Source: a virus. From it: DNA of 20,109 nucleotides. Positions 1,925 through 18,933 of the stretch are shown piece by piece. Where the stretch lies: the IMG/VR virus record IMGVR_UViG_3300021085_000289, positions 1 to 20,109 of that record; one strand, written 5' to 3'. The number at the start of each line of letters is the position of its first letter. Within the stretch, counting starts at the first letter, position 1. Both the position numbers and the translations under genes were made by a program. Below the pieces are notes generated by a model that had not been told where the DNA came from, made no database searches, and worked only from the letters and a program-made list of their open reading frames with translations.

Positions 1925-3127
1925 ATGTCAGTATTAAAAAAAGATGGAATAGAAGTTTCAAAAAGAGTAGGACCCAACAGTGTTGTTGGTATTAATAATA
2001 TTCAAGGAACTTATATCGGCGAAGTTATTGACAATGTTGATAGCTTATACACAGGCAGAATAACAGTACGCATAAACGATTTTCAAAGCCAAGATGCAGA
2101 ACATATTTGTTTACTAGCATTGCCATTTGGCGGACATACTAAAATTAAAGACAGTGGTGATGACAAAACCAAAGAAGCACAAGCTCCAATAAGTTATGGA
2201 ATGTGGCCACAACCTCCGGAAATAGGAACCAATGTTGTTGTAGTTTTCACTGGTAGTTTAGAGCAAGGCATTGTTATGGGTTCGTTAGTCTCAAAAGACA
2301 ATAACTCTATGATGGGCGGTAGAGCAAGTGGACAAGCATATGTAAATGGTGAAACTGAACTAGCACCAACAGTTGAAAAAAATCCATACGACACAGATGA
2401 TGATGACACTAAACCACTTGACGAATACTTCCAATCAGTATTAAATCAGCAAGGACTAAGTCTTGACTATGTTAGAGGACACAGTAAGAGTGGAGCAAGA
2501 AGAGAATCACCTAGTAAGGTATTCGGAATTACAACACGCCAAGGACATGTATTATCAATGGACGATGGCGATGATGAAGAAGCTAGTAAAAATATTAGAT
2601 TGAGAACTAGAAGTGGCGCTCAAATTTTAATGGACGACAGTAATGGATTTATTTTTGTCACCACACAAACCGGTGACGCATGGATAGAAATGAACAATGT
2701 AGGACAAATTGATGTTTACAGTAAGGCAGGCATAAACATGCACACTGAAGGCGACTATAATGTACATGCTAAAGGTAGCATTAATATGCAAGCCGAGGTA
2801 GGAGTAAATATTAAAAGTACAGGTGGAGATGGAATTAAGTTAGAAACAAAAGTTGCAGGCATAGATGTTTATAGTGCATTAGATATAAAAATGCAATCGC
2901 CAAATAATTATCATCTAAAAGTAGACGGCAATGTAATAATGAAGGGCGGCAAGATAGACATGAATGGTCCAGAACCAGAAGAAGCTACAAAGATTACAAT
3001 ACAAAATCAGGAATCAAATGATAATGTAAAAACTAGTATAGCCAGTAGAGTACCAGAACACCATCCGTGGAAAGGTGTTGATGGACTTGACCCAACATAT
3101 AAAACGCAAAAAGGAAGAATATTATAA
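1925..3127 (+). CDS. 5: gp5-like baseplate hub spike (OB fold plus beta-helix)
   Basis: This is the central tail spike, related to T4 gp5 and VgrG, which pierces the outer membrane on contraction. Residues 28-122 look like the OB fold (GTYIGEVIDN, GRITVRINDF, YGMWPQPPEIG, then VVVVFTGSLEQGIVMGSLV). An acidic linker follows (DTDDDDTKP at 156-164). Residues 196-350 form a strand-repeat region of alternating short hydrophobic beta strands (IRLRTRSGAQILM, IDVYSKAGINMHTEG, INMQAEVGVNIKS), typical of the triple-stranded beta-helix. The C-terminus carries SRVPEHHPWKG, a short tail motif of a kind I associate with phage hub proteins. At 400 residues it is shorter than T4 gp5 (575), because the lysozyme domain that T4 has between OB fold and helix is missing. 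A lysozyme-fold gene lies immediately downstream instead. The start at 1925 has AGGAG at 1915-1919 with a 5-base spacer, and the gene follows the upstream stop by one base. Confidence 0.88.
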   Translation: MSVLKKDGIEVSKRVGPNSVVGINNIQGTYIGEVIDNVDSLYTGRITVRINDFQSQDAEHICLLALPFGGHTKIKDSGDDKTKEAQAPISYGMWPQPPEIGTNVVVVFTGSLEQGIVMGSLVSKDNNSMMGGRASGQAYVNGETELAPTVEKNPYDTDDDDTKPLDEYFQSVLNQQGLSLDYVRGHSKSGARRESPSKVFGITTRQGHVLSMDDGDDEEASKNIRLRTRSGAQILMDDSNGFIFVTTQTGDAWIEMNNVGQIDVYSKAGINMHTEGDYNVHAKGSINMQAEVGVNIKSTGGDGIKLETKVAGIDVYSALDIKMQSPNNYHLKVDGNVIMKGGKIDMNGPEPEEATKITIQNQESNDNVKTSIASRVPEHHPWKGVDGLDPTYKTQKGRIL

Positions 3128-3834
3128 TGCCATCGTTTAAGTTAAAAGCAGTTGTAGATAGCAGTAATTTAATTGACTATGGACTATTCACTGTAATAGA
3201 TAGTTCAGCAGTGAATACATTAATAGATCTCAAAACCTTAGAAGCAAGTGATAAATTAATTAATATTAAAATTAGAAACACTAAATGGCTAGGTTATGCA
3301 AAAGGTTCTGTTATTGGATACAAAACAACTACACAATTAACAGGTGACGGATTAACAGAAGCCGCTGCTTATACACTATGGATTGAAAAATTCAAAGACA
3401 AGGAAAGAGCATTTAAACGACAATTTCCATTGGAACAATTATCACAAGCACAATATGATGCTATGTTAGGACTTTATATAGATACTGGAACATTTCATAA
3501 AGTGGGATCAGATTCTAGACAATTTGATATATTGGAATATATACAAGATAGAAAATGGGAGTATGTGGCTACTGCACTAACATTAAATACATTAAACAGA
3601 AGAGACAGACAATCAGAAGCAAAGTTGCTTATGCTAGGTGACTATGGGATGTACAAAGATAGAAGTTATATCAAAGAAGAAGGTTTGCAAACTATGTTAA
3701 AAGAATATGTGTCGTCGCAATTAAACGATATACAAAAAAAGCAAGCAGAATATGTTTACTACGCAGAAACAAAAAGGTTTCTACCAAATATGATTGAGAG
3801 CAGGAAAAGAATTCTTGCAAATCTACTCAGTTAA
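3127..3834 (+). CDS. Free-standing GH24 lysozyme-fold protein, possibly catalytically inactive
   Basis: Residues 42-173 follow the T4 lysozyme layout. VIGYK (62-66) sits where family members have TIGYG. GLTEAAAYTLW (75-85) matches the T-x-x-E-A segment. LSQAQYDAMLGLYIDTGTF (105-123) matches the L-s-x-x-Q-x-D-A-L...N-x-G helix. LEYIQDRKWEYVATAL (136-151) parallels the T4 LQQKRWDEAAVNL stretch. RRDRQSEAKLLMLGDY (158-173) matches the family's RR-x-x-E-x-x-L-x-x-x-G-D-Y. By my alignment the catalytic positions T4 E11, D20 and T26 fall on D42, N51 and V62, so muramidase activity is doubtful, although the N-terminal alignment is loose. A C-terminal extension (174-235) is rich in charged residues. 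The ATG overlaps the gp5 stop (TAATG) and has AAGGAAG at 3111-3117, so it should be co-translated with the spike. It probably replaces the lysozyme domain that is built into T4 gp5. The alternative is a purely structural hub cap. Confidence 0.7.
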   Translation: MPSFKLKAVVDSSNLIDYGLFTVIDSSAVNTLIDLKTLEASDKLINIKIRNTKWLGYAKGSVIGYKTTTQLTGDGLTEAAAYTLWIEKFKDKERAFKRQFPLEQLSQAQYDAMLGLYIDTGTFHKVGSDSRQFDILEYIQDRKWEYVATALTLNTLNRRDRQSEAKLLMLGDYGMYKDRSYIKEEGLQTMLKEYVSSQLNDIQKKQAEYVYYAETKRFLPNMIESRKRILANLLS

Positions 3835-3883: not shown

Positions 3884-4438
3884 TTGAATAAAAGCGTTTT
3901 ACTACTTAATGCTGATGGGCAACCATTATCACAGATGCCACTTAGCACAGTCAGTTGGCAAGATGCAATCAAGGCCATGTGGTCACAAAAAGTACATGTA
4001 ATTAAAAATTATGATGATGAGTTTCTCCGGTCACCAACAGTAACTATTCCATACCCAAGCATTATTATGCTTAACACTTATCACAAACAACCCTCCAAAG
4101 CAAAATTCACTCGTAGAAATTTATATGTCAGAGACAAATACTGTTGCCAATACTGTGGCGATAGGTTTGCTTATGCTGACTTAACAATTGATCATGTTAT
4201 TCCAAAGTCAAAAGGTGGAAGACTAACATGGGAAAACAGTGTTACTGCTTGTGGTCCGTGCAATGTAAAGAAAGGCGATAGCTTATATCCTTTACCTATG
4301 CAACGACCAACACACCCTTCGTGGTACCAAATAAACTATGCTTACCAGCATCATACACTCACAATACCAGACGCAGCCTGGAGCAAATACATACATTGGC
4401 AGGAAGATAAACTAATTGTTGAATCTTTATCTACATAG
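3884..4438 (+). CDS. HNH endonuclease
   Basis: The 184-residue product has a complete HNH (beta-beta-alpha metal) nuclease site. C88-x2-C91 and C123-x2-C126 form the structural zinc site. DH at 103-104 gives the catalytic histidine, and N118 (WEN) and N127 supply the remaining motif positions. The N-terminus (VLLLNADGQPLSQMPLSTVSWQDAI) and FTRRNLYVRDKYCCQYCG match a family of stand-alone HNH proteins of about this size in bacteria and marine phages. I chose the TTG at 3884 because family homology begins there and because AAGGAA precedes it. The ATG at 3794 would add 30 residues with no family likeness and would overlap the lysozyme-fold gene. The gene sits between the spike and gp25 with its own late promoter. 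It could be a homing-type gene inserted in the structural block, or a nuclease with a role in DNA processing. The sequence does not decide between these. Confidence 0.88.
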   Translation: MNKSVLLLNADGQPLSQMPLSTVSWQDAIKAMWSQKVHVIKNYDDEFLRSPTVTIPYPSIIMLNTYHKQPSKAKFTRRNLYVRDKYCCQYCGDRFAYADLTIDHVIPKSKGGRLTWENSVTACGPCNVKKGDSLYPLPMQRPTHPSWYQINYAYQHHTLTIPDAAWSKYIHWQEDKLIVESLST

Positions 4439-4847: not shown

Positions 4848-7800
4848 ATGGCACAGAAATCAAGACAAAATAAACTATTTGCGGCAGAGGACTTTACAGT
4901 AATCTATGAATCATACATCAATGCAAACTTTCAAGCATTTGACTTTGATACTATTAGAACTGCAATGGTTGACTATGTACGCAACAATTACCCAGAGAAC
5001 TACAATGACTGGGTTGAATCAGCTGAATTTGTATCACTACTAGATGTAGTTGCACAGTTTGGACACAACTTAGCATATCGAGTAGATATGAATGCAAGGA
5101 ATAACTTTTTAAGTACTTCCCAAAAACAAGAAAGTGTTTACAAGCTAGCAGAATTTTTAGGTTACCAAGCAAGACGCAATGTGCCAGCGTACGGTGAGAT
5201 GAAAGTAATAGGTGTTAAAACAAACGAACCAGTTATAGGTAGTGCAGGTACTAGCTTAGGTGGTACCGAAATAAAATATGAAGTGTCAAACAATGTTAAC
5301 AACTTAGATGACTTTATTACTATAGTAAACTCTGTATTGCAAAATAGCAATCAATATGGTAGTCCAAAAAAGTCAGTAGTAATTAATAATATAAAAACAG
5401 AATTCTATGATATGAACAATACTCCAAACCAAATTAAATTTGATGTAAATGGTACTGTATCAGGAGCAAGTTCGAACTTCAATATCATAAGCAGTGACTA
5501 CGACAATAACTCAAGAACATTCACAGAAAAATCTCCAGACCCAGTTGGAAGTTTTGGTATTTACTTTAAACAAGACGGTAAAGGGATAACAAGTATTAAC
5601 ACTGGATTCTTCTTTGGTGTTAAACAAGGAACATTACAGTTTCAAGACTTTGTTGTTGACAACCCAATTGACAGTGCATCATTTGATATAACAAATGCAA
5701 ATGTTAATAATACAGATGTATGGGTACAAAATATTAACGAAACAGGAAATATTGCCAAAGAATGGAATAAGGTTCTAGATGTTAACAGTAATGTAGTTTA
5801 TAATAATTTAGCAACAGGTGAACGAGATATATTCAGTATTAAAACTAGAAAAGATAATAAAATATCAATTATGTTTCCTGATAGTACATTTGGTAACATT
5901 CCAAAAGATACTATTAGAGTATGGCACAGAACAAGTGCTAACAGTACATATGTACTAAGACCAGATGATTTAACAACTAAAAAAGTTCAAGTAAATTATA
6001 CAGGGTATGATGACAATACATATACTGCTGTGTTTACATTGCAACTTAAACAATCAATTGCAAACGCAAGTGCAAATGAAACAATGGATCAGATTAGAGA
6101 AAACGCACCAAAGAATTACGCTAGTCAAGACAGAATGATTACTGCACAAGACTACAATACAATGTTAGGTAATACCAGTGGTAGCATTTCAAAAATTAAA
6201 AGTATTAATAGAACATTTAGTGGACACAGTAGATATTCTAAATTCGGAGATCCCACAGGAACATACAGTAACTTATATATGGCAAACAACGATGGTGTAT
6301 TATATGCTACAGATAATTTAGTTAATTCTGCATCAACTACAACAGATAGTGCAAACGTTATATTCCAAAAATATATCAAAGATATTCTTGACAATGATGA
6401 ATTTGTAAACTTGTATTATAAAAAATATAGAAATTCATTTCTTGGGTTAGCACAAGAAACTATTGATGGAACTAGGCATATGGATAACGCAGACTATGTT
6501 AGTGAATCATCAATCTTTACTTGGAATAGTCCAAGTTCTACAGCTAGTGGTATCTTAACAGGCTATCTAACTTTAAGTAATAATATTGCTCGTGTAGGTG
6601 ATACTGCAAGTGGATACATAAAACATTTTAAACCGGGAGCATTAATTAAATTTGCACCAGCAACAACAACTGCAGGTGGGTTTGTTACAGGACAAAATTA
6701 TAAAATAAGAGCAACAGGTACAACTGATTTTACATTACTTGGTTCAGCTAATAATAATATTGGTACAATATTTACGGCAACAAGTGCTGGACTAGGTACT
6801 GGAACAGCTACTGCACAAAATTTCAAATGGGCAAAAGTAGTAGATATTAAAACATACGGCTTAGGCATTGAAGGTATAGGAGCACAAGCAGGTGCGCCTA
6901 CTGGCATAGTTTCTGATGGAACTGGTGCAATTGTATTAGATGCAAAAATTCCAGCAAACAGTACAATAGAAATTATATATCCTGCTCTTACTAGAAAATT
7001 TAGTACTCGAGAAAGAGACTTAGTTATTAATTATTTAACTGCAAAAAGATCATTCTCATTAGTATACAATTACAAAACAACAAGTTGGAACATTGATACA
7101 ACTCCTGATAATTGGGATGGTACTCAAGCATTTCCAGATGACTTTGGAATAAATGATAACAGTTGGTCAGTGTTTATTGATTATACTGGTTCAACATTTG
7201 ATATCTATCTAAGAACACAACGAATTAATTTTACAAGTTCAGCAGTAAAACTAGGAAACATTCAAAACGAAGTTGAGATTGGATCTTATACTAAAAAAGC
7301 TAAACGAGATATAATTACTGTACTAGGCGGATTTAGAACTGAGATTTTACCAGTTGGTTCGTTTTATGTATATGGGTTTGAAAACTCTGATTCTAACAAC
7401 TATAGATTAGCATTGATTGACGGGAATGCTGACAGTAGACCAGACAACCCAGATGTATACAGTGATATAGTTTTGCCAAGAGAAGATACTTTACTAACTA
7501 GTCCAAATCCATTAGTACGAGGCGAAGAGAATTTGCATTTTGAATGGGAACACATTGCAACAGACAACCAAGTTGTTGACCCTAGCTTTACAAACATTAT
7601 TGATGTTTTTGCTTTGTCAAAAACTTACGACACAGAATATAAAAATTATTTAAAAAGAACTGTAGCAGTAGAACCAGTACCGCCAACTAGTTACGAACTA
7701 GGAAGTCAATTTATCGGTATCAACGATAAGAAAGCAGTAAGTGATACTATTGTTTATAAACCAGTTAAGTACAAGCCATTGTTTGGTTCTTTATCAGAGC

Positions 7801-8144
7801 CACATCTTAGAGCTAGATTTAAAATAATTAAACTATACGGATCAAATATTACTGACAGTGATTTAAAATCAAAAACAGTAACAGCTATAGGTGAATTTTT
7901 TGAAACAAGTAATTGGGACTTTGGCGAAACATTTTACTTTACAGAATTATCTGCATATGTACATAAGCAACTAGCAGGTGTGCTAAGTAGTTTTGTTATT
8001 GTACCACAAAATGCAGGTAGTGTATTTGGTGACATGTTTGAATATGAACCAAACAGTGATGAACTACTTATACCAGATGTAGATGTAGGTGACATTGATA
8101 TTATTACTAATATCACAGACGCTAATATTAGAGCAGGATCATAA
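4848..8144 (+). CDS. 6: gp6 baseplate wedge protein, enlarged
   Basis: This is the main wedge protein, which forms the ring around the hub and binds gp25 (T4 gp6 and P2 gpJ family). The N-terminal third carries the conserved features: FDFDTIRTAMVDYVRNNYPENYNDW near residues 33-57, then FVSLLDVVAQFGHNLAYRVDMNARNNFL and VYKLAEFLGYQARRNVPAYG. At about residues 412-445, NAPKNYASQDRMITAQDYNTML is the typical wedge/gpJ-like A-P-x-x-x-x-x-x-R-x-V-T-x-x-D-Y segment. The C-terminus (about 985-1098) contains the beta-rich end with SNWDFGETFYFTELSAYVHK. At 1098 residues it is far longer than T4 gp6 (660). Part of the excess is a 45-residue cassette at 612-656 that recurs in the next gene. The ATG follows the gp25 stop by two bases. 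No strong Shine-Dalgarno is visible, so translational coupling to gp25 is likely. Confidence 0.9.
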   Translation: MAQKSRQNKLFAAEDFTVIYESYINANFQAFDFDTIRTAMVDYVRNNYPENYNDWVESAEFVSLLDVVAQFGHNLAYRVDMNARNNFLSTSQKQESVYKLAEFLGYQARRNVPAYGEMKVIGVKTNEPVIGSAGTSLGGTEIKYEVSNNVNNLDDFITIVNSVLQNSNQYGSPKKSVVINNIKTEFYDMNNTPNQIKFDVNGTVSGASSNFNIISSDYDNNSRTFTEKSPDPVGSFGIYFKQDGKGITSINTGFFFGVKQGTLQFQDFVVDNPIDSASFDITNANVNNTDVWVQNINETGNIAKEWNKVLDVNSNVVYNNLATGERDIFSIKTRKDNKISIMFPDSTFGNIPKDTIRVWHRTSANSTYVLRPDDLTTKKVQVNYTGYDDNTYTAVFTLQLKQSIANASANETMDQIRENAPKNYASQDRMITAQDYNTMLGNTSGSISKIKSINRTFSGHSRYSKFGDPTGTYSNLYMANNDGVLYATDNLVNSASTTTDSANVIFQKYIKDILDNDEFVNLYYKKYRNSFLGLAQETIDGTRHMDNADYVSESSIFTWNSPSSTASGILTGYLTLSNNIARVGDTASGYIKHFKPGALIKFAPATTTAGGFVTGQNYKIRATGTTDFTLLGSANNNIGTIFTATSAGLGTGTATAQNFKWAKVVDIKTYGLGIEGIGAQAGAPTGIVSDGTGAIVLDAKIPANSTIEIIYPALTRKFSTRERDLVINYLTAKRSFSLVYNYKTTSWNIDTTPDNWDGTQAFPDDFGINDNSWSVFIDYTGSTFDIYLRTQRINFTSSAVKLGNIQNEVEIGSYTKKAKRDIITVLGGFRTEILPVGSFYVYGFENSDSNNYRLALIDGNADSRPDNPDVYSDIVLPREDTLLTSPNPLVRGEENLHFEWEHIATDNQVVDPSFTNIIDVFALSKTYDTEYKNYLKRTVAVEPVPPTSYELGSQFIGINDKKAVSDTIVYKPVKYKPLFGSLSEPHLRARFKIIKLYGSNITDSDLKSKTVTAIGEFFETSNWDFGETFYFTELSAYVHKQLAGVLSSFVIVPQNAGSVFGDMFEYEPNSDELLIPDVDVGDIDIITNITDANIRAGS
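6681..6815 (+). repeat. Shuffled cassette, copy 1 (inside gp6)
   Basis: This encodes gp6 residues 612-656, with pattern T-G-x-x-Y-x-I...T-T-D-F-T-x-x-G-(S/A)-x-x-N-x-I-G-T-(I/V)-F-T-A-T...G-T. It interrupts a segment that otherwise runs from GALIKFAP to FKWAKVVDI, as an inserted cassette would. The same pattern occurs three times in the next gene. Confidence 0.8.
8135..8138 (+). promoter_or_regulatory. Ribosome binding site for the giant structural gene
   Basis: AGGA lies seven bases before the ATG at 8146 and inside the last codons of gp6. It supports 8146 as the start in preference to the in-frame ATG at 8089, which lies 56 bases inside gp6 and would add 19 residues. Confidence 0.65.
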
Positions 8145-8145
8145 T

Positions 8146-11100
8146 ATGAAAAAGAAGGCAGGACAGAATTCAGTCAGCAATATAAAAACTAGTAAGTTCT
8201 TACCGGGTGTATTCCAAACAGAACTTAATAAAACTTGGTTAGATAGCACATTGGATCAAATGGTTTCAAAAGGACCATTGGAAAGCATCAGTGGATTTGT
8301 TGGAAGTAAAGATGGTAAAGTATCGTCAGCTGACGATACATACATAACAACAGATTTTAATCCAGCTATTGTTTCATATAACAAAGAAAAACAAATAACT
8401 AACTTGCTTGCATTTGACGACATTGCAAATTCAATTAATGAAAATTTTAAAACATACAATTACAACTCGGCATACAACTCTACTAAGTTTAGTTTCAGTC
8501 CTCCAATTGATATTGACAAATTCACTAATCATCAAAACTACAGTTGGGTAGAAGAATTACCAGTATACGAAAGTGTACTAGCATCTGGTAGCGTAAACCC
8601 AATCACAGAAATTCGAGACAACAACAAGTCTACTATTGTAGATGATAACAACACAGTTGTACTAGAAAACCAAATGCTTATTAAATTTACAGGTGCAGGT
8701 TGGGACACAGCAGTTACAGGTAAAACATATATTGTAGCAGGATCAAGTGGTAAGTTTAGTTTATATGAATACATAGATGAAAACAATGTAAGAGTATATA
8801 ACAATACAGTAAAGCATTCAGAGAACACAGATGGTACTTGGACTAATGACACATTATTTAATGTTGAACCAAATTGGGACAGTAAGTATTTTCCAGTAAT
8901 AAATGCAGGTAATTTTGTAATTGGGCAAACATATAGAATTAATAGCGTAGACACAACAGATTTTACAACAGTTGGCGCAGCTGACAACAACATTGGTACA
9001 GTGTTCACTGCAACAGGTGTAGGAACATTAACTGGCGGAGCTCAACTATTAGTAGAACCAGAAATTGTAATAGGATTATATAATGCAGATGGTGTTAAAG
9101 ATCCGGTGTTTGATGGATTTTATTTTGTTGATCTAAATAACAATCCTACTAAGCTCGTGTATGACACACTTGTAAAGTTTGCAGGAAATTGGGCAACTAC
9201 AACAGATACAACAAATACATATTCAATAGCATACAAAATTGATACTATTGGAATTAACATAGCACTAGCGACGGCAGATGAAATAGCAACTATTCCAGTT
9301 ATATCACCTTCAAGTAATTTAATGTATGACAAGGGATCTATTGTTGCTCCTATAAAAGATTATATTGTTGTAGCTAAAAATGATAACGCTCAAACAGCAT
9401 GGAGCAGAAATAATCACTGGGTTAATACTAGTACAATTAAAAAGTTAATTGAACTGATACCTGGCTATGACTTTTCTGACATAGAAAGCACATATAGAAA
9501 AGCATCAAGGCCTATTATTGAATACACTACAGAATTGCACATGTGGAATCAAACTGAAAGTACTTCTAATGTTTCATACAAGGGTGTTGTTGATGAAGCA
9601 GTTACTATTGGAAACGAACCAACTACTACAGGTAAAACTTATGTGTACACAGACGACACTGATACTTTGATTCATACAGTTGGAGGTTCAGATGTTACAT
9701 TATCAGAAGGCGATACTTTCTCTGTATTAACAAGCACAGACAGTCGATGGATAGAAGCTGATGGTTACTACACGGCTGGCAAAGTAACACTTGCACAACA
9801 AAAAACACAAACAAATCAAACACCGTTATACAGATTTTATAACGAAGCCGGCGATGCATTAGAAAGCGTTAACGGAAAAAGATTTATTGGCGATAAAATA
9901 TTTGGATATAAAATTGGCACAGGTGCAAACGACCCTGAACTAGGATTTCCATTAAGTTATAAAGACACACCCAAGGGTGCTGAATTTGAATTTGAAAACT
10001 TTATTATAACACAAAAATATCATACTACATATTCTAATGCAGAAAACTCTAGAGGAACATATTCAAAAGATCAAGTTGGCTATAGTTTATTTAAACAAAA
10101 TAATATATTAAAAAATATATACATACCTGCTGGAGAAATGGCAGGTGCTGAAGAACATGTACAATATAAAGTAGATGTACCAGATTCAACATTAACAATA
10201 CCATACGGTGAAAACAACTGGCGCCCTACACAAGAAATTTTAGTACACAACAATGAAAATAATTTATCAATCACAACATTAACAAGCACAGGTGAATCAA
10301 CTACAAAAGAATCTGCAGACGGTGAAGTAATGATACTAGGCGTTGGTCAAGAAATTACATTTAAAAGTTTAAGTAGTATGACATTATCAATTGTATCACA
10401 TGGTACAACTATTACAAATAATACACCAGGTTGGATAAGCACTTATACATCATCAGCTGATAGTATAACTTTAAAAACAAGCGGATCAAGTAATAATACT
10501 AGATTTAATTTAGTAGGAAATGGTAATACAGTAATTCAAACATTTGTTGTATCTGAACAATGGGATAATTTATTTTATAATATAACAATAGATGGTAAAA
10601 GAATTGACCAATCTAATTTAACAATAAATGAAACAACAATTGATATAGACACAAGTGTTCTTAATAAAAATAGTTTGGTTGATTTATATTTTAGAAATGT
10701 AGACTTAGCAAACAAAACAATTAACAATAGTTTACCAGATGTACACAAACATAATGCAAACAACAAAGCTATTGAAACTTTTACTTTAAGTGAAACATTA
10801 GATCATTGGGTAGACAAACTAAACACATTGCCTGGGTTTGATGGGAAAGCATTTGAAGAAAATAATTACCAAAGCATTCCACATACATCACACTACGGTG
10901 GCACAATCTTTATGCATAAAGATATTAGTATAATGCACGACATTAATTACTCATCAAACGAATTAAGTGTAACTGGTGCATTAGTAGAACAAGCAAACGA
11001 GTTTGTAGCATTTAGACAACGAGTATCTGCACAAGCAAGAAGAATTTGGTCTGCGGGTGCTAGTACTGTACAAGAATTAGCCGACAATGCTATATACGAA

Positions 11101-14100
11101 GTTACAAGAAATCAACAGGATCACGGACTATACAAAGAATCAAACATGCTTTATATTAAGGGTGAAGACTACCAAACCTTTACACTAGAAGGTGATGCTA
11201 TAACTGATTTCCCTAAAACATTTAATACACGATTCTTAATCAACGGTGATAAGAATATTAGAGATCATGTTTATGTTTACTTAACAGAAGACAATGGCAG
11301 TGAAACACAAATAAGAAGATTATTATTAAAAGACACAGACTACACATTCATAGGCAAGACAGTTACATTAACATTAAATTATGCAGCCTATGATAGTTTA
11401 AAAACCAAACCAACAGTAGAAGTATACTATACACACATGGACGAACAAAGTTTTGTTCCAACCAGTATGGTAAAACTTGGACTAGCATATGGTATAGAAC
11501 CACAAGTAGATAATAATATATTATATACACACGACGGTAAAGAGATAGATGTTACTGGACAAGATTTAATTAATATTAATGCTCCTACATTTAATCCAGT
11601 TAACGCAGTAATATTTGAAATGGAAAAACGCATATTTGCAGGACTAGTTAAGCAAGATGCAATGTACAAAGACGAAGTACAGGGCAGAACAAAATACAGT
11701 GCGTATAATAATTATTTGCCTTCTCAACATAGACATACTTGGTATTCATTAGCAGATTTAAATAATTATTTAGAAAAGCATTACTATAAATGGGCCAAGC
11801 AAAACAATATTACAAGTTTTAATACATCAAATTATTTTGAAACAAACAATTCATTTACTTGGAATTATAGTACTATAACAATCAACAATGGATATAAGAA
11901 CCAAGCACTTCCAGGTCATTGGAAAGGTGCATACATGATGTTGTTTGGAACATGCACTCCACATCTTACTCCGTGGCATATGCTAGGTTATTCATTTAAA
12001 CCAACATGGTGGGACGCCGAGTATAATTGGGATACAAAGAGAAACGAATTACTAGACGCACTAAAACAAGGTACATATACAAACCCTACATCTGCAAAAG
12101 AATCGCAAGATATTAATGTTGCTAGACATTATTGGGATTGGGATAATCACTGCCCAGTTAATAATGCTGGTGAACTACGAGATCCTAGGTTTGTATTAGA
12201 TCCAAATTCAACACTTGTAGGTTTTGACAAAGAGCAAGAGTTTGTATTTGGTGACTGGGGACCAGTTGAGTATGAATGGAGAGCAAGTGCATTAGGACAA
12301 GCAGTAACAGTTGACGCAGTATTAAAACTTAATCCTGCAAAGGCTTGGACAGACTTTTTCCAACCAGGACAGTCTCAACAATTCTTAACAAGTGATTTTT
12401 ATAAAACGCCAGGTAACATATATGGCAATTCAGTTGAATACATACAAGTAAACTCATCACCTAGTACATTAGAACGCAATGGTTCTTTTGTAATGCTAGA
12501 TGACGACTACAGTACAATTGGTGCTGCAACATACGATTTAACAGATATAGGTACTCCTGGAAAGATTGACGCGATAAGTGTAATTGATCGTGGATTAAAC
12601 TTTACAACACAACATATTGTTTCTTATGTTCCATACTATAGTGAACTGCCAACTGGCATTGACTTGTATACAAAATTAAAACCAGTTTCTTTTGTAGCGA
12701 ATGGAATTGCACAAGCACAGTTTAACTTTATGATTAGACACAGTTTTAATACTAAACTAGATAATCTACATGATAATTTAACTACAAAGTTACAAACAAA
12801 ACTAAATGGATTTACAAGCAAACACTTGTTAAACATAAATGCAGAAACAAGTAGTGCTGGAGACTTCCAACTTGGAGCAGATGACTTTAGTGTAGAAATG
12901 TATAAAGGTACTACTGCAGAATTAGTTACTGCTAGTACATTAACAATTAAAAAAACATTAACCGGTTACACTGTAGAGGGTGTTAGTAATAATGCAAGAG
13001 AGTTTAGTTTTTACGAACCAAACCTAGCAGTACCAACAGCTTATACAACAAAAACTATTTTAAATCAATCAGTAAGACATTATAATAATTTTGTTACAGT
13101 TCCTAGTATTATTGAATATGATGCTGAACTACAGAAGCTACAAGATGTTTATAACTTTATAAGAGGTTACTGGAAATGGATGGACACAGTTGGATACACA
13201 CCAGAGTATGACGGTGATAGTTCTGCTTCAGACTTTGTTGCTTGGGCATTTACTGCCGAAGTAGGACAAGGCTATATTCTACAACTAGGTAGAGTAATAA
13301 AATATAAACCAAACACTGGTCATGTATATGAATATAATAAATTAGAATATAACAGTAATGATGTGTTAGCATCAGATAGTACACGACTAGATAATACTAG
13401 ACTAAGTATCAAGCGTATAGACGGTACAACTACAATTGAAACAAAACAAAAAGAATTTATAGGAAGTGTAACCAGTGCGGTATTAAATTACCAACATGTT
13501 ATTTTGTTTGAAAATAAAACAAAACTAGCAGTAAATATATTTGACGATGTTAAAAACATATCTCAGAAAAGATTACATGTATCTGGACAAAGAACACAAA
13601 ACTGGACTGGTGAGAAGAAAGCTCCAGGATATTTAATTGCAGGAAACAGTATTGTACAAAACTTTGATAGTGCAGTCGAAAGCATTAACGATATTTATAG
13701 AACAGATGTAGATGAATTTAATAGAACATTTGCAAAAGGAAAAGAACTCACACTAGGAAAATCAGAAGGAATGTTATTAGATGGACTAGGTATTAACGAA
13801 AATGTTCTTACAAAATATTATCAAGGAATGATTAGAGAAAAAGGTACACAAGGTGCAATCGAACATGTAGGCAAGAGTACAATATTAAATAATGGAGAAA
13901 CTAAAGTTTCTGCTTACGAACAGTACATGTTTAGACAATCTACTTTGGGCAATGATGACTTGGAAGATCCGTTAGAGATTGAAATAGTATCAAGTGACAT
14001 TACATCATCACCACAAGCCATATCATTAGACACTGCAACTACAGAAGCCAATGTAATAAATGCAACATTATCTAGAATTGTTAACGACAAGCCTATTACA

Positions 14101-17100
14101 TTTGAGACACTAGGATATGATGATTCAGAGAGTGATATACTTACAGGTGGTGAGCCGTTGTTTATTGAAACAACATATAGATCATTAAGTTTGCCAGATA
14201 TGCCAAATGTGTTTGATACCGAAGCCGACTACAATAAAATTCCAACTTGGAATGCTTCAACAAGTTATCAACTAGGTGACAAAGTAAGATACCAAGGACA
14301 GCTATGGAAATGTAATGTTGACTTTACAGGACTAACAGAAACATCAGGTACTATTTTAGTAAACGGTACTGCAACATATCCGACATTTGCATCAGGTACC
14401 CAGGCAATTATTGCTGGAACAACAACTACTTTAGAAAAAACTAATCCTTATTGGACAGATGTTGTTGCTGAAGGTACAGTTGTTAGTCCTACATTTAAAG
14501 ACACTAAAACATTATTTGTAGATGGAGTACAAATTAACTTTGATAAGAAAGTAGGTGTACCTACTGTTATTGGTCCTGCTATTATGTTAGCAGATGCTAA
14601 CGGTAGATTATTAGACACCACAGATAGATCAATAACTATTGCAATAAGAAATACAAACACAGGTGACACTGATACTACTATTGATTTTGATTATCCAGAT
14701 GTAACTGAAACATTTAGTGGAGATGCAACTGAAACAGCATTCACTATTTCACAATCATTAGGCGGAGCTATTGGTGACAATTACGAAATACAAAGTGTAA
14801 CAGTAGATGGCGTTGCATCAACTGACCCTACAGACTATTCTGTAAGTGGACAAGTTATTACATTTACAAGTGCACCTGCAACAGGATCGAATAATATCGT
14901 TGTAGTTTTAAATCACATCACATTCCAATTAACACAAGCACAAATTAGAGATAAAATTAATAATGCAAATATTACTAACTTAACATGTACAATTGAAAAC
15001 ATAGGCAGTATAGACAGATTACAACTAAGCTACCAAGACACAGATGTAGAGAACAGCTTGGTACTAAAACCTGGAAGTGGTCCACATGGATCTAACAACT
15101 ACTATGCAAACAGTGAATTAGGATTTATTACTTCACCAACTGAGAATGTTGAGATAGTAGTAGCACAACAAAAACAAAATCAGTCTACAAGTGTAGACAT
15201 GACAGTAAATGAAATAGCAGGATTTATTAATGGCGAATCTAATGGAGCATTAGCAAATGTAACTGCTACAGTTGATAGTAATAAGCTAGTAATAACAAAA
15301 GCTAATAACACATCAGTTACTAATTTATATTTTTCTGGAAGTGCATGTGCATTATTGGGTATTACAACTGGCACAACAGACTATGTTAACATTGAGCAAG
15401 ATGTTCCAGTTCCTGCAGATCTTAACTTTGCTATAGACAAGATAAAAATTACATTAGCAAACGCAGGTGTTACAGATGTAATAGTTGCAAGAGTAGGTAA
15501 CGCACTTTCAATATCATCAACTGCTGCGTCATTGACACTTGGTGATACAACCTTTAACAGTAGTGCTGGTATAGTAACAGGCACTGTATTTTCAACTTCA
15601 ACAAATGTTGCAAATACATTTACTGACACTAAAACAATAGATGGAATTGAAGTAGATCACTTTACTGTAATAGATACTTCACAAGACCCAGCATTGTTTA
15701 ACATATTAGTATCCGATGACAGTGATTATAGTGTTGCAACAGTAGGCGGAATTAATACAAAATTCTATAGTTGGAATGTATTCCAAGCACAACAATCAGC
15801 AGTACCATTGTTTACAAAACCAGACCCAGCATTAAACACATTAGATAACTTTACTACATGTGGTATATGTGCAGGAACAACAAGTTCAGATGGAAATGAT
15901 GCAGAAGTAACAACTAATATTCCACATGGATTAACAGTGGGTAGCTATGTTATGTTATTAAATACAACTACCACACCAAACATAGACGGCATACATAAAA
16001 TAACAAAACTAGGTGAAAAGTCTAATGTATTTTACATAGACGAATACATTGAGTCGTGTGGTAACGCAGTATCTGTTTTACCATTAGTGACTACTAGATT
16101 TGCTAGCAAAGATCAAAGAGAAACTGCATTGCTAAGTAACAGTTGGAATTTACCAGTTAATAAAGTAGTATTTGCTAATACTAACCCAACAGGCACAGAA
16201 AACCTTAGAGGAACATATGTTAGAATGATACAAAGTTACGATATACATTCAGCAGGTACAACAATCCAAGCAGGTAATTATTATAGAATACAGTCAGTAG
16301 GAACTACTGACTTTACAACAATTGGCGCTGGTGCAAACACAGTAGGTACTATATTTGCTTCAACAGGCGCAACCACAGGTACAGGCACTGCTTTAAGAAT
16401 AGCTTCAACTGAGACCCGAAGAACTACTACCAGGCCAACTAATAAAGATATTGATAGCATGGTAATTTATAATCATGTTAACAACCAAGCCAAAGTACAA
16501 CTTGAAGCATGGGATCCAATGAGAAAGATATTACCAGGTATAGCTAGACAAAACATAGACTATATTAACCACTCAGACAACGCAATATATAACACATCAA
16601 CTGATGTTAACCAACACATTGACTTAGACACATCTTGGGGCAATGATCAGGTTGGAACAAGATGGTGGGATATTAGTAAGGTTAGATATGTTGACTACGA
16701 TCAAGGTGATGCTCAATACAAAACAAATCATTGGGGTAGACAAGAGAACGGCAGTGAAATTGTTGTGTGGGAATGGATTAAATCAACAGTAGCACCAGAC
16801 GATTACGATGAAGAAGTTGGAAAAAATACAGAGATGTTTGGTACTGTTGCAACAGGCGAAGCGTTCTCATACTATGACGAAGTAGCTAAAGAAACACAAT
16901 ATTATTATACAACAGAAGAAGAATGGAGTGAACAAACACTTTCATATAAAACTGTTTATTACTTCTGGGTAAAAAATAAAACAACACTAACAGACACTAG
17001 ATCACTTTCAGCATATGAGGCTTCTTTAATAATTGATAACCCTACTGCTAATGGTGTTAGTTGGTTTGCTGTTATAAGTGAAAAAGAATTCTTAATAGAT

Positions 17101-18933
17101 AATATTAATTATTATGTAGAAGATAAAAATACTGTAGTACAAATTAATAAAGCAGGTGATAAGTTTAAGTCACACAACGAATGGACAGTCATTACAAAAG
17201 ACAGTGATATAATTCCAGAATATTATATTAATAGACTGAAAAGAAACTTAGGTGGAAGAAATGATGCTAAAGCTAAAATTCCATTTATATCATTACACAG
17301 ATTTAATAGATACGGAGATGATTTAGAAATTGGTCAAGCATGGTTTAATAATTTACCAGACGCTAGAAGAAATGCAATTGTAACAATCAATAGTATACTT
17401 AAAAATATTAACTTAGTAGATGAGTATCAAGAAACATGGGATGTGACTTTATTAGCAAATAATTTCCCAACTAACTTATGGAGATGGACTGATTATGTAT
17501 TACCAACATACACTGGCACACTTAATCATACAACAACAATTACTAAGTATTCAGACTTAGATGCATTAGACAGAACTAAACATTTAGTTGCAAAACTAAC
17601 ATTGTTCCATACAGAGCTACAACTTAATAGAACTGAAACATATGCATATAATAAAGCAACCGATAAATGGGATCTTGTGTTTAAGAAAAACAGCACAGTT
17701 GAGTTTGACGAAGGACTAATGACTGCAACAGGTGGTTGGGACACTACAACATTTGACTCTAGGCCTTGGGACGAGGCAGACATTGCTGAGTATTGGGAAA
17801 CATTAGTTGAAGCATTAAACAAAGATATATTTGTGTACTATCACAGTGATAAAATGAATACACTATTCTTTGCAATGATACATTATATATTAAGTGTGTT
17901 TGAGCAAACAAACTGGATTAGAAAAACAACATATATTAAATTAGAATTTACTGATGCATTAGAAACAAAAATTAGAAAATATACTAAGAACAAAATTAAT
18001 AATGTAATAGGATATGTACAAGAAGTTAAACCGTTCCATACTAAGTCAAGTACAATAGTTACAAAACATACTGCACTTGAGAATGCAAACCTAACACTTA
18101 CCGAAGAGCCTGCTACAAATATAACTGTTAAGGTTAACGACTACGAAGCATTGTTTGGTGGAACATTATTTAATGATAATTCAGTAAACAACGTATCAAT
18201 AGCAGATCTTGTAACAGGAACAGAGTATGTTATAACATCACCTAGCAACTCTGACTTTACAACAGTTGGTGCAGCTGACAATGAAATAGGAACTATATTC
18301 ACTGCAACAGGCACTGGATTTTTAAATGGGCAAGCACAATTACACATAGGCGGTACAGGAACAAATCTTATAAATGGAATTGATTTTAATGATGCAGCTT
18401 CATTTAATTATATAACAGGTGGATTTAATAGAAACAGTCTTGTTGAAGTCAAACCATTAGAGCAGTTAGTAATTAATGTACAAACAAATGCATCAGGTAG
18501 CACACATGCATCAACATCAAGAACATTTGCACACATACATCAAGCAAACAACAATGTAATTGCATATGGATTAATAGAAACAAAAGAAGATGAATTAAAT
18601 GCATCATTTGGTACAGGCGACGATACTATTACTGTAGTAAGTACTGCTAACTTTGATGCAAGTGGTATTGTATACATAGATGGTGAATTAATTGAATATA
18701 CAAAACACAATAGTACAACACTTAACGTTATTAAACGTGGAGTAGCAGGAACATTCGGTGTTACTGCAAGTGTAGGGACATCAGTTATACAAGTAAATGA
18801 TACTCAACTTACATTTGCAAATGGCAGACCAAGCCATTATGGATACAACACAATAGGCGCTACGATTTTAAACAGCCCTGGGTCGACACAAGCACAAGAG
18901 TTGCAAACATTCGGCAAGGGTGTAGAATTATAA
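8146..18933 (+). CDS. Giant modular virion structural protein in the gp7 position
   Basis: This is a single frame of 3595 residues, begun one base after the gp6 stop. It occupies the place of T4 gp7 (1032 residues), but I see no direct gp7 match. The N-terminus (FLPGVFQTELNKTWLDSTLDQM, then ISGFVGSKDG) and a C-terminal KPFHTK (3295-3300) resemble very large structural proteins of marine T4-like phages. Residues 1258-1385 are rich in tryptophan and look conserved (TPWHMLGYSFKPTWWDAEY, FGDWGPVEYEWRASALGQA). The second half is modular. It has a CBM5/12-like stretch (W2035 to about 2107), a beta-rich module (2189-2255), three related segments (about 2263-2479), an HGL module (2586-2635) and an RG module (3482-3550). 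Three copies of a 45-residue cassette lie at 254-302, 2709-2752 and 3354-3401. No signal peptide or membrane segment is seen. It is probably a peripheral baseplate or fibre-network protein involved in host contact. The structural role is strong; the exact role is inferred. Confidence 0.82.
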   Translation: MKKKAGQNSVSNIKTSKFLPGVFQTELNKTWLDSTLDQMVSKGPLESISGFVGSKDGKVSSADDTYITTDFNPAIVSYNKEKQITNLLAFDDIANSINENFKTYNYNSAYNSTKFSFSPPIDIDKFTNHQNYSWVEELPVYESVLASGSVNPITEIRDNNKSTIVDDNNTVVLENQMLIKFTGAGWDTAVTGKTYIVAGSSGKFSLYEYIDENNVRVYNNTVKHSENTDGTWTNDTLFNVEPNWDSKYFPVINAGNFVIGQTYRINSVDTTDFTTVGAADNNIGTVFTATGVGTLTGGAQLLVEPEIVIGLYNADGVKDPVFDGFYFVDLNNNPTKLVYDTLVKFAGNWATTTDTTNTYSIAYKIDTIGINIALATADEIATIPVISPSSNLMYDKGSIVAPIKDYIVVAKNDNAQTAWSRNNHWVNTSTIKKLIELIPGYDFSDIESTYRKASRPIIEYTTELHMWNQTESTSNVSYKGVVDEAVTIGNEPTTTGKTYVYTDDTDTLIHTVGGSDVTLSEGDTFSVLTSTDSRWIEADGYYTAGKVTLAQQKTQTNQTPLYRFYNEAGDALESVNGKRFIGDKIFGYKIGTGANDPELGFPLSYKDTPKGAEFEFENFIITQKYHTTYSNAENSRGTYSKDQVGYSLFKQNNILKNIYIPAGEMAGAEEHVQYKVDVPDSTLTIPYGENNWRPTQEILVHNNENNLSITTLTSTGESTTKESADGEVMILGVGQEITFKSLSSMTLSIVSHGTTITNNTPGWISTYTSSADSITLKTSGSSNNTRFNLVGNGNTVIQTFVVSEQWDNLFYNITIDGKRIDQSNLTINETTIDIDTSVLNKNSLVDLYFRNVDLANKTINNSLPDVHKHNANNKAIETFTLSETLDHWVDKLNTLPGFDGKAFEENNYQSIPHTSHYGGTIFMHKDISIMHDINYSSNELSVTGALVEQANEFVAFRQRVSAQARRIWSAGASTVQELADNAIYEVTRNQQDHGLYKESNMLYIKGEDYQTFTLEGDAITDFPKTFNTRFLINGDKNIRDHVYVYLTEDNGSETQIRRLLLKDTDYTFIGKTVTLTLNYAAYDSLKTKPTVEVYYTHMDEQSFVPTSMVKLGLAYGIEPQVDNNILYTHDGKEIDVTGQDLININAPTFNPVNAVIFEMEKRIFAGLVKQDAMYKDEVQGRTKYSAYNNYLPSQHRHTWYSLADLNNYLEKHYYKWAKQNNITSFNTSNYFETNNSFTWNYSTITINNGYKNQALPGHWKGAYMMLFGTCTPHLTPWHMLGYSFKPTWWDAEYNWDTKRNELLDALKQGTYTNPTSAKESQDINVARHYWDWDNHCPVNNAGELRDPRFVLDPNSTLVGFDKEQEFVFGDWGPVEYEWRASALGQAVTVDAVLKLNPAKAWTDFFQPGQSQQFLTSDFYKTPGNIYGNSVEYIQVNSSPSTLERNGSFVMLDDDYSTIGAATYDLTDIGTPGKIDAISVIDRGLNFTTQHIVSYVPYYSELPTGIDLYTKLKPVSFVANGIAQAQFNFMIRHSFNTKLDNLHDNLTTKLQTKLNGFTSKHLLNINAETSSAGDFQLGADDFSVEMYKGTTAELVTASTLTIKKTLTGYTVEGVSNNAREFSFYEPNLAVPTAYTTKTILNQSVRHYNNFVTVPSIIEYDAELQKLQDVYNFIRGYWKWMDTVGYTPEYDGDSSASDFVAWAFTAEVGQGYILQLGRVIKYKPNTGHVYEYNKLEYNSNDVLASDSTRLDNTRLSIKRIDGTTTIETKQKEFIGSVTSAVLNYQHVILFENKTKLAVNIFDDVKNISQKRLHVSGQRTQNWTGEKKAPGYLIAGNSIVQNFDSAVESINDIYRTDVDEFNRTFAKGKELTLGKSEGMLLDGLGINENVLTKYYQGMIREKGTQGAIEHVGKSTILNNGETKVSAYEQYMFRQSTLGNDDLEDPLEIEIVSSDITSSPQAISLDTATTEANVINATLSRIVNDKPITFETLGYDDSESDILTGGEPLFIETTYRSLSLPDMPNVFDTEADYNKIPTWNASTSYQLGDKVRYQGQLWKCNVDFTGLTETSGTILVNGTATYPTFASGTQAIIAGTTTTLEKTNPYWTDVVAEGTVVSPTFKDTKTLFVDGVQINFDKKVGVPTVIGPAIMLADANGRLLDTTDRSITIAIRNTNTGDTDTTIDFDYPDVTETFSGDATETAFTISQSLGGAIGDNYEIQSVTVDGVASTDPTDYSVSGQVITFTSAPATGSNNIVVVLNHITFQLTQAQIRDKINNANITNLTCTIENIGSIDRLQLSYQDTDVENSLVLKPGSGPHGSNNYYANSELGFITSPTENVEIVVAQQKQNQSTSVDMTVNEIAGFINGESNGALANVTATVDSNKLVITKANNTSVTNLYFSGSACALLGITTGTTDYVNIEQDVPVPADLNFAIDKIKITLANAGVTDVIVARVGNALSISSTAASLTLGDTTFNSSAGIVTGTVFSTSTNVANTFTDTKTIDGIEVDHFTVIDTSQDPALFNILVSDDSDYSVATVGGINTKFYSWNVFQAQQSAVPLFTKPDPALNTLDNFTTCGICAGTTSSDGNDAEVTTNIPHGLTVGSYVMLLNTTTTPNIDGIHKITKLGEKSNVFYIDEYIESCGNAVSVLPLVTTRFASKDQRETALLSNSWNLPVNKVVFANTNPTGTENLRGTYVRMIQSYDIHSAGTTIQAGNYYRIQSVGTTDFTTIGAGANTVGTIFASTGATTGTGTALRIASTETRRTTTRPTNKDIDSMVIYNHVNNQAKVQLEAWDPMRKILPGIARQNIDYINHSDNAIYNTSTDVNQHIDLDTSWGNDQVGTRWWDISKVRYVDYDQGDAQYKTNHWGRQENGSEIVVWEWIKSTVAPDDYDEEVGKNTEMFGTVATGEAFSYYDEVAKETQYYYTTEEEWSEQTLSYKTVYYFWVKNKTTLTDTRSLSAYEASLIIDNPTANGVSWFAVISEKEFLIDNINYYVEDKNTVVQINKAGDKFKSHNEWTVITKDSDIIPEYYINRLKRNLGGRNDAKAKIPFISLHRFNRYGDDLEIGQAWFNNLPDARRNAIVTINSILKNINLVDEYQETWDVTLLANNFPTNLWRWTDYVLPTYTGTLNHTTTITKYSDLDALDRTKHLVAKLTLFHTELQLNRTETYAYNKATDKWDLVFKKNSTVEFDEGLMTATGGWDTTTFDSRPWDEADIAEYWETLVEALNKDIFVYYHSDKMNTLFFAMIHYILSVFEQTNWIRKTTYIKLEFTDALETKIRKYTKNKINNVIGYVQEVKPFHTKSSTIVTKHTALENANLTLTEEPATNITVKVNDYEALFGGTLFNDNSVNNVSIADLVTGTEYVITSPSNSDFTTVGAADNEIGTIFTATGTGFLNGQAQLHIGGTGTNLINGIDFNDAASFNYITGGFNRNSLVEVKPLEQLVINVQTNASGSTHASTSRTFAHIHQANNNVIAYGLIETKEDELNASFGTGDDTITVVSTANFDASGIVYIDGELIEYTKHNSTTLNVIKRGVAGTFGVTASVGTSVIQVNDTQLTFANGRPSHYGYNTIGATILNSPGSTQAQELQTFGKGVEL
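8905..9051 (+). repeat. Shuffled cassette, copy 2 (giant protein residues 254-302)
   Basis: The encoded core reads Y-R-I-N-S-V-D-T-T-D-F-T-T-V-G-A-A-D-N, followed by I-G-T-V-F-T-A-T-G. At the DNA level the stretch around 8961-8988 is almost identical to the matching part of copy 4, which suggests recent duplication or exchange. Confidence 0.85.
14248..14466 (+). other. CBM5/12-like carbohydrate-binding module within the giant protein
   Basis: Starting at W2035, the protein reads W-N-A-S-T-S-Y-x-x-G-D-K-V-x-Y-x-G-x-L-W-K-C, then PYWTDV about 45 residues later. This matches the usual W...Y..GD.V.Y.G..Y.....W layout of chitin or cellulose-binding modules (CBM5/12 type). A polar Thr/Gly-rich loop of about 30 residues is inserted before the last tryptophan. 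It suggests surface glycan binding. Confidence 0.6.
14710..14910 (+). other. Beta-rich tail module (F-x-GD ... TVDG ... ITF-TSAPA)
   Basis: Residues 2189-2255 read TFSGDATETAFTIS, then SVTVDGVAS, DYSVSGQVITFTSAPATGS and IVVVL. This order is common in phage tail fibre and baseplate proteins, where it forms a small beta-sandwich. It supports an exposed, adhesive role for this half of the protein. Confidence 0.6.
14932..15582 (+). repeat. Three divergent related segments in the giant protein
   Basis: Three segments (14932-15129, 15199-15372, 15418-15582) share the order I-x-x-x-I-N-x-A...V-x-A-x-V...L-x-I-S/T-x...S-x-L...L-G. The first two end in ELGFIT and LLGITTG. The third is more degenerate. 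They look like an old tandem duplication, but the likeness is weak and was judged by eye. Confidence 0.4.
15898..16050 (+). other. HGL-type beta module within the giant protein
   Basis: Residues about 2586-2635 read V-T-T-N-I-P-H-G-L-T-V-G-S-Y-V, then GIHKITKL and FYIDEYI. This is a frequent pattern in phage tail proteins. Cysteines flank it on both sides (CGIC just before, SCG just after), in a protein that otherwise has few. Confidence 0.5.
16270..16401 (+). repeat. Shuffled cassette, copy 3 (giant protein residues 2709-2752)
   Basis: The core reads Y-Y-R-I-Q-S-V-G-T-T-D-F-T-T-I-G-A-G-A-N, then V-G-T-I-F-A-S-T-G and a GTGTA end. It sits between RMIQSYDIHS and a TRRTTTRPTN segment, so it again interrupts an unrelated region. 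Confidence 0.82.
18205..18348 (+). repeat. Shuffled cassette, copy 4 (giant protein residues 3354-3401)
   Basis: The core reads Y-V-I-T-S-P-S-N-S-D-F-T-T-V-G-A-A-D-N, then I-G-T-I-F-T-A-T-G. The stretch at 18255-18281 is nearly base-for-base identical to copy 2, even though the two lie about 9.3 kb apart. Confidence 0.85.
18589..18795 (+). other. C-terminal RG-type beta module of the giant protein
   Basis: Residues 3482-3550 follow the order D-D-T-I-T-V...T-A-N-F-D-x-S-G-x-V-Y-I-D-G-E-L-I-E-Y...L-x-V-I-K-R-G-x-x-G-T. This is a widespread phage tail module (I-D-x-E-x-I-x-Y, then R-G-x-x-G-T). It supports a tail or fibre location for the C-terminus. Confidence 0.6.

Follow-up and report, generated by a model that had tools for sequence, protein, structure and literature searches.

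A giant protein encoded by an uncultured phage contains, in its middle part, a row of candidate glycan-binding and tail modules between better conserved regions, and the locus therefore raises the question of whether these modules are exchanged as one receptor-binding unit or diversify by other means. The first-pass annotation had favored the former and placed an exchangeable, possibly hypervariable block at 14248-16050. The window (the whole stretch of DNA analysed, 20109 bases of a virus record) contains the following genes, in this order:

first in the gene order, 640-aa structural protein
1925-3127, gp5-like hub protein
3127-3834, lysozyme-like protein (score slightly under the Pfam cut-off)
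3890-4438, HNH endonuclease (Pfam HNH_5, E 7e-17)
4848-8144, gp6-like baseplate wedge protein (phrog_10646, E 2e-240)
8146..18933, + strand, giant virion protein of 3595 aa, one open frame (phrog_10938, virion structural protein, E 2e-166)

Genomic context and relatives of the giant protein

The gene of the giant protein lies directly downstream of the gp6-like gene, as gp7 lies beside gp6 in T4, and is followed by two more genes. Homology of the giant to T4 baseplate proteins was not seen in hhalign searches with single T4 sequences as targets, which revealed no similarity to gp6-gp12 (probability <1% against the one T4 gp7 sequence). The lysozyme-like and gp5-like hub proteins are encoded by two separate genes, whereas in T4 the lysozyme and the gp5 hub are fused into one protein. 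The HNH endonuclease encoded between the lysozyme-like and gp6-like genes is possibly a homing endonuclease. Among named phages, the best relatives of the giant are structural proteins of jumbo phages (the PA5oct group and the SCTP-2, RaK2 and 121Q types); the named-phage collection contains no DNA-level relatives of 13000-17500, and no solved structure related to the giant by sequence was found. Searches of IMG/VR located at least 80 loci with an anchor at 16420-17590, nine with an upstream anchor and three with the block itself.

Modular composition of the block

The block corresponds to residues 2035-2635 of the 3595, and all of the modules assigned to it in the first-pass annotation are present side by side, the CBM5/12-like stretch being partial:

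14245..14322, + strand, N-terminal half of a CBM5/12-type module (residues 2034-2059, Pfam PF02839)
14443..15825, + strand, fast-evolving core (residues 2100-2560)
14707..14910, + strand, F-GD module, a predicted beta sandwich of the XD2 (T4 gp10) type (residues 2188-2255, detected with our own HMM)
14911..15078, + strand, related segment 1, a flagellin-IN/FliD-like repeat
15181..15372, + strand, related segment 2
15403..15582, + strand, related segment 3
15787..16092, + strand, HGL module, a conserved beta barrel in the structure model (residues 2548-2649)

The CBM_5_12 match scores above the Pfam cut-off (29.1 versus 26.2 bits, E 1e-6) and covers positions 1-26 of the 44 in the profile, so that the module is not matched over its full length; the same stretch has a profile match to the chitin oligosaccharide deacetylase 3wx7 (E 0.0024). 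The three segments are mutually related and alpha/beta in character, with hhalign probabilities of 96.0 (segments 1 and 2), 90.8 (1 and 3) and 96.8 (2 and 3).

To assign folds, residues 1985-2790 were modeled from 50 aligned sequences (50 of the 70 possible rows of the alignment). The model has a pLDDT of 85.7 and a pTM of 0.51, and its domains are therefore reliable, whereas their mutual arrangement is not predicted. In this model, F-GD (model part 199-275) resembles the T5/DT57C neck protein (Z 9.0) and residues 187-250 of CBA120 TSP4 (Z 8.3), in keeping with an XD2/XD3-type fold at Z values where chance arrangements also occur. The three repeats and their neighbors match FliD and the outer domains of flagellin (Z up to 10.4), and for HGL (model 564-665) the similar structures are the barrel of the E1 enzyme (Uba) and residues 255-340 of the phi92 endosialidase (Z about 8). 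Matches at Z 8-10 may simply reflect common arrangements. The modeled folds thus point to docking domains of the T4 gp10 XD2 type and to FliD-like repeats rather than to a proven receptor binder.

A fast-evolving core and a conserved HGL end

Sequence identity along the giant was determined with nine nonredundant relatives, using windows of equal size as the null. The core (residues 2100-2560) has an identity of 0.408 as compared to 0.536 overall, and a value this low or lower is reached by only 1.1% of equal windows. In all nine relatives the core (0.39-0.46) is less conserved than its flanks (0.52-0.70), and the claim that the block lies between better conserved regions is thereby borne out. 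The exact block 2035-2635 is less extreme (identity 0.461; 8.9% of equal windows as low). Conservation of the CBM stretch is ordinary, and that of HGL (residues 2561-2640) is among the highest in the protein (identity 0.72, above 99% of equal windows). A profile of 60-residue bins over 59 relatives agrees with these results, and its gap-richest bins in the close group (241-300, 2701-2760 and 3361-3420) all lie outside the block. These bins arise from three copies of a small module, TDFT, described below. The alignment of relatives, which had been proposed as a check, is therefore non-uniform as anticipated, with a low core, but the HGL end behaves in the opposite way. Likewise, the borders 14248-16050 do enclose the low core, but HGL falls outside the variable zone, and beyond them lie the three modules that vary by presence and absence and are the least stable parts of the giant.

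The core could be variable merely because surface repeats and linkers tolerate substitutions, with neither exchange nor host pressure. The core retains an identity of 0.39-0.46 with every relative, be the flanking identity 0.52 or 0.70, a plateau-like behavior that agrees with such relaxed constraint, as does a dN/dS well below 1 (0.22 for the block and 0.14 for the rest in the pair L015/L016). Relaxed constraint nevertheless leaves unexplained the raised synonymous divergence seen in several pairs, which argues against relaxed protein constraint alone, and we regard it as an unlikely account of the block.

Synonymous divergence and phylogeny of the block

Synonymous divergence was analysed in 10 of the 41 close pairs; of the remainder, some were almost identical, some sampled one phage repeatedly, and others were omitted. 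The ratios of block to remaining dS are 2.92, 1.44, 1.94, 1.71, 1.09, 0.63, 2.50, 0.61, 1.02 and 1.03, such that dS in the block is raised 1.4-2.9-fold in five pairs, nearly equal (1.0-1.1) in three and lower (0.6) in two; for three of the ten, no more than 2.3% of equal windows rank as high as the block. The block and the rest have dS values of 0.231 versus 0.079 in L015/L016 (dN 0.051 versus 0.011), 0.259 versus 0.104 in L053/L055 and 0.081 versus 0.048 in L003/L005, and dN/dS is below 1 throughout. In the otherwise almost identical pair L034/L035, the core differs at 0.58% of 1200 nt as compared to 0.03% of 9759 nt; about seven differences in this giant gene are packed in the core, with about three elsewhere. 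Among the omitted pairs, the core is less divergent in L063/L081 (0.65% versus 3.7%) and L080/L081, lower and about equal, respectively, in L065/L082 and L066/L082 (core of 195 nt), and slightly more divergent in L051/L081 and L065/L066. Tree comparisons are asymmetric: with the flank data the AU test rejects the core tree (p 0.005 and 0.028), but with the core data neither flank tree is rejected (p 0.11 and 0.34), and the tree conflict is therefore weak. The raised block dS in some pairs fits local homologous exchange, and these sequence comparisons suggest that a tract roughly covering the block has been exchanged in this manner in some lineages.

Could the block instead be a discrete, putative receptor-binding unit (14248-16050) that is swapped in one piece and changes host range? 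The low identity between conserved flanks, the CBM5/12 match and the raised dS in five of ten pairs, with the block in the top 2.3% of windows in three, speak in its favor. However, the search with the block alone recovered three loci, all from the same phage group and with matching flanks, and none in a foreign context. In addition, conservation is high at the HGL end and unremarkable in the CBM stretch, the flank trees are not rejected by the core data, and F-GD resembles docking domains that hold other virion proteins in T4 gp10 and CBA120 TSP4, as described in an excerpt of the published account (PMC8825819). The block is orthologous and probably not swapped as a whole. What survives of the exchangeable receptor-binding block is its low core identity and the dS raised in half of the pairs; the flat or lower dS in the other five, the conserved HGL and the weak tree conflict speak against it, and we consider exchange as a unit improbable.

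Gain and loss of single modules

The units that come and go in the giant are single modules at loops, namely F-GD (~68 aa) and TDFT (~45 aa). TDFT, named after its motif, is present in three copies in the giant and in one copy in the gp6-like protein:

6681..6803, + strand, TDFT copy in the gp6-like protein (HMM 61.7 bits)
8911..9036, + strand, TDFT copy 1 in the giant (HMM 64.7 bits)
16273..16386, + strand, TDFT copy 2 in the giant, with a long modeled beta strand on either side (HMM 49.3 bits)
18205..18330, + strand, TDFT copy 3 in the giant (HMM 56.4 bits)

Orthologs that lack the module exhibit a clean gap. L086, with 68% identity over 2073 columns, is the closest relative. At the site of copy 1, about 50 aa are missing in all seven aligned relatives and in L086. 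Copy 2, which is flanked by strands 701-718 and 764-776 of the structure model, is found in only one of the seven, L015, and also in its close relative L016. Copy 3 is missing in all seven, and L003 has an F-GD in the same linker. The copy in the gp6-like protein is absent in L086 (whose gp6 is 81% identical), L089, L092 and L025, and present in L094. To judge from their sequences, the orthologs may form short hairpins at three sites.

Among the 80 giants listed from IMG/VR, TDFT occurs in 11, at 11 distinct window positions (a partial twelfth hit was excluded), and F-GD occurs in 37, with extra copies at five places. Four of the five extra F-GD sites have a TDFT site no more than 40 residues away (P 0.011 by simulation), likely because both occupy loops. 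One clade (L010, L006-L009 and L037) has a tandem duplication of F-GD near window residue 2192. The block does not stand out as a hotspot for insertion: 4 of 13 pooled sites are inside it (P 0.16), with 4 of 11 for TDFT (P 0.10) and 2 of 5 for extra F-GD (P 0.20), counted without the partial L057 hit at site 2122, and none of these enrichments is significant.

Distribution and identity of TDFT

An IMG/VR search with a 48-residue TDFT query confirmed at least 491 of 599 pattern stretches, 80 of which were kept. A search of 84,980 prokaryote genomes gave 563 stretches, of which 17 proved genuine, mostly in metagenome-assembled genomes (MAGs), and the cultured-phage collection contains at least three records, a lower bound because the BLAST low-complexity filter cuts the TDFT query. 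One cultured carrier is the cyanophage S-TIM54, for which Synechococcus serves as laboratory host. When the module was masked, the 98 open frames from 97 loci chosen for TDFT formed at least 48 sequence clusters. Domain scans of 43 of the 48 cluster representatives gave matches to tail sheath, tail spike and tail fibre proteins (among the latter central tail fibre J and the T7 tail fibre), to the Mtd N-terminal domain and to baseplate wedges of the gp6 and gp8 types, and in one representative each to PilY1, the flagellin N-terminal region and PATR. A head closure protein was recorded separately as a further carrier. In an alignment of the 43, conservation is almost confined to TDFT. One virion protein (L115, 2051-5779) contains seven TDFT copies in a single open frame.

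Searches of Pfam, NCBIfam and PHROGs with 97 copies returned no convincing family. The best matches are scattered, with E values of 0.004 or weaker, and those to YjbE (15 of 97) and glucokinase (16 of 97) look like low-complexity chance. One of the 97 matches the Ig-like family Big_10 (E 0.11), and there is no structural match to an Ig-like domain, which is no exclusion of one. The TDFT alignment has 97 rows (96 of 99 references and window copy 2). A model of TDFT has a pLDDT of 86 and a pTM of 0.68, and neither a fold search with this model nor a search of the PDB gave a match beyond chance level. Literature listings for the motif and for domain insertion or promiscuity contain no such phage module, and TDFT is apparently unnamed within the family libraries and literature searched.

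Rickettsia palindromic elements are a precedent for elements within proteins that are mobile at the DNA level. Recent mobility of this type was rejected for most TDFT copies, as synonymous codon matches are near expectation both between loci (0.371 versus 0.354 expected, 4627 pairs) and within loci (0.449 versus 0.402 expected, 29 pairs). A few pairs look recent, for example two copies in L026 that match at 25 of 34 codons as compared to 15.4 expected. We tentatively propose, at slightly less than even odds, that TDFT is a self-contained plug-in of ~45 residues for the tips of beta-hairpins in surface-exposed virion and cell-surface proteins of unrelated phages and some bacteria, where it may provide general, low-affinity surface contact, and that what is truly exchanged in the giant is TDFT and F-GD.

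Discussion

The block is modular, and its core of F-GD and three repeats has faster substitution under purifying selection. In our preferred reading, which we hold to be probable, the phage is an uncultured one with a contractile tail, probably of the jumbo type, its giant protein belongs to the baseplate region, and the block forms a rapidly evolving arm of several modules midway along that protein, presumably outward-facing and not a one-piece receptor-binding cassette. The core of this arm would diversify rapidly by substitution and occasional homologous exchange, while loops along the whole giant would accept single plug-in modules (F-GD and TDFT). F-GD may serve in docking, as XD2/XD3 do in T4 gp10, and the three repeats may be FliD/flagellin-like surface repeats, so that an arm facing outward could hold fibre-type partners or touch the cell surface; in that position it would diversify under host pressure, and it might thereby affect host choice.

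On its own the block is a fairly ordinary fast-evolving arm, and TDFT is the more interesting result. For giant structural proteins of large uncultured phages, separating a fast orthologous arm from volatile modules guides the search for host adaptation. If TDFT is a real stand-alone domain, many environmental phage particles share a component that is nameless in the family libraries searched, and it may serve as a defined tool for testing the decoration of phage surfaces.

Several known systems resemble parts of this locus. In metaviromic islands of marine phages, intragenic recognition regions under-recruit reads, and genes for carbohydrate-binding proteins and tail fibres are frequent, according to the portion of the report consulted (PMC3909814); here, by contrast, the variable piece is in a baseplate-region giant rather than at a fibre tip and was seen by sequence comparison. 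F-GD superimposes on the XD2/XD3 domains of T4 gp10 and CBA120 TSP4 (PDB 7rfv and 7rej) over 64-68 residues with an rmsd of 1.9-2.2 Å (Z 7.7-8.3), and an excerpt on these domains describes them as binding other virion trimers (PMC8825819). Unlike them, F-GD is a single copy embedded in a giant protein where no trimer context is apparent, and extra copies are gained at other loops. The modeled repeats match D2-D3 of the flagellar cap protein FliD and the outer domains of flagellin over 87-111 residues (Z 8-10.4), but here a phage structural protein contains three of them, and no flagellin terminal domains were noted in it. Finally, promiscuous Ig-like domains occur on phage virions. TDFT differs from these in its length of ~45 residues, in that the fold searches linked it to neither Ig nor another fold and in its apparent position at the tips of beta-hairpins, but like them it is one small module that recurs across many unrelated virion proteins. 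Domain mosaicism has been described, in the part of that work available to us, for tail fibres, spikes and baseplate proteins (PMC10684548).
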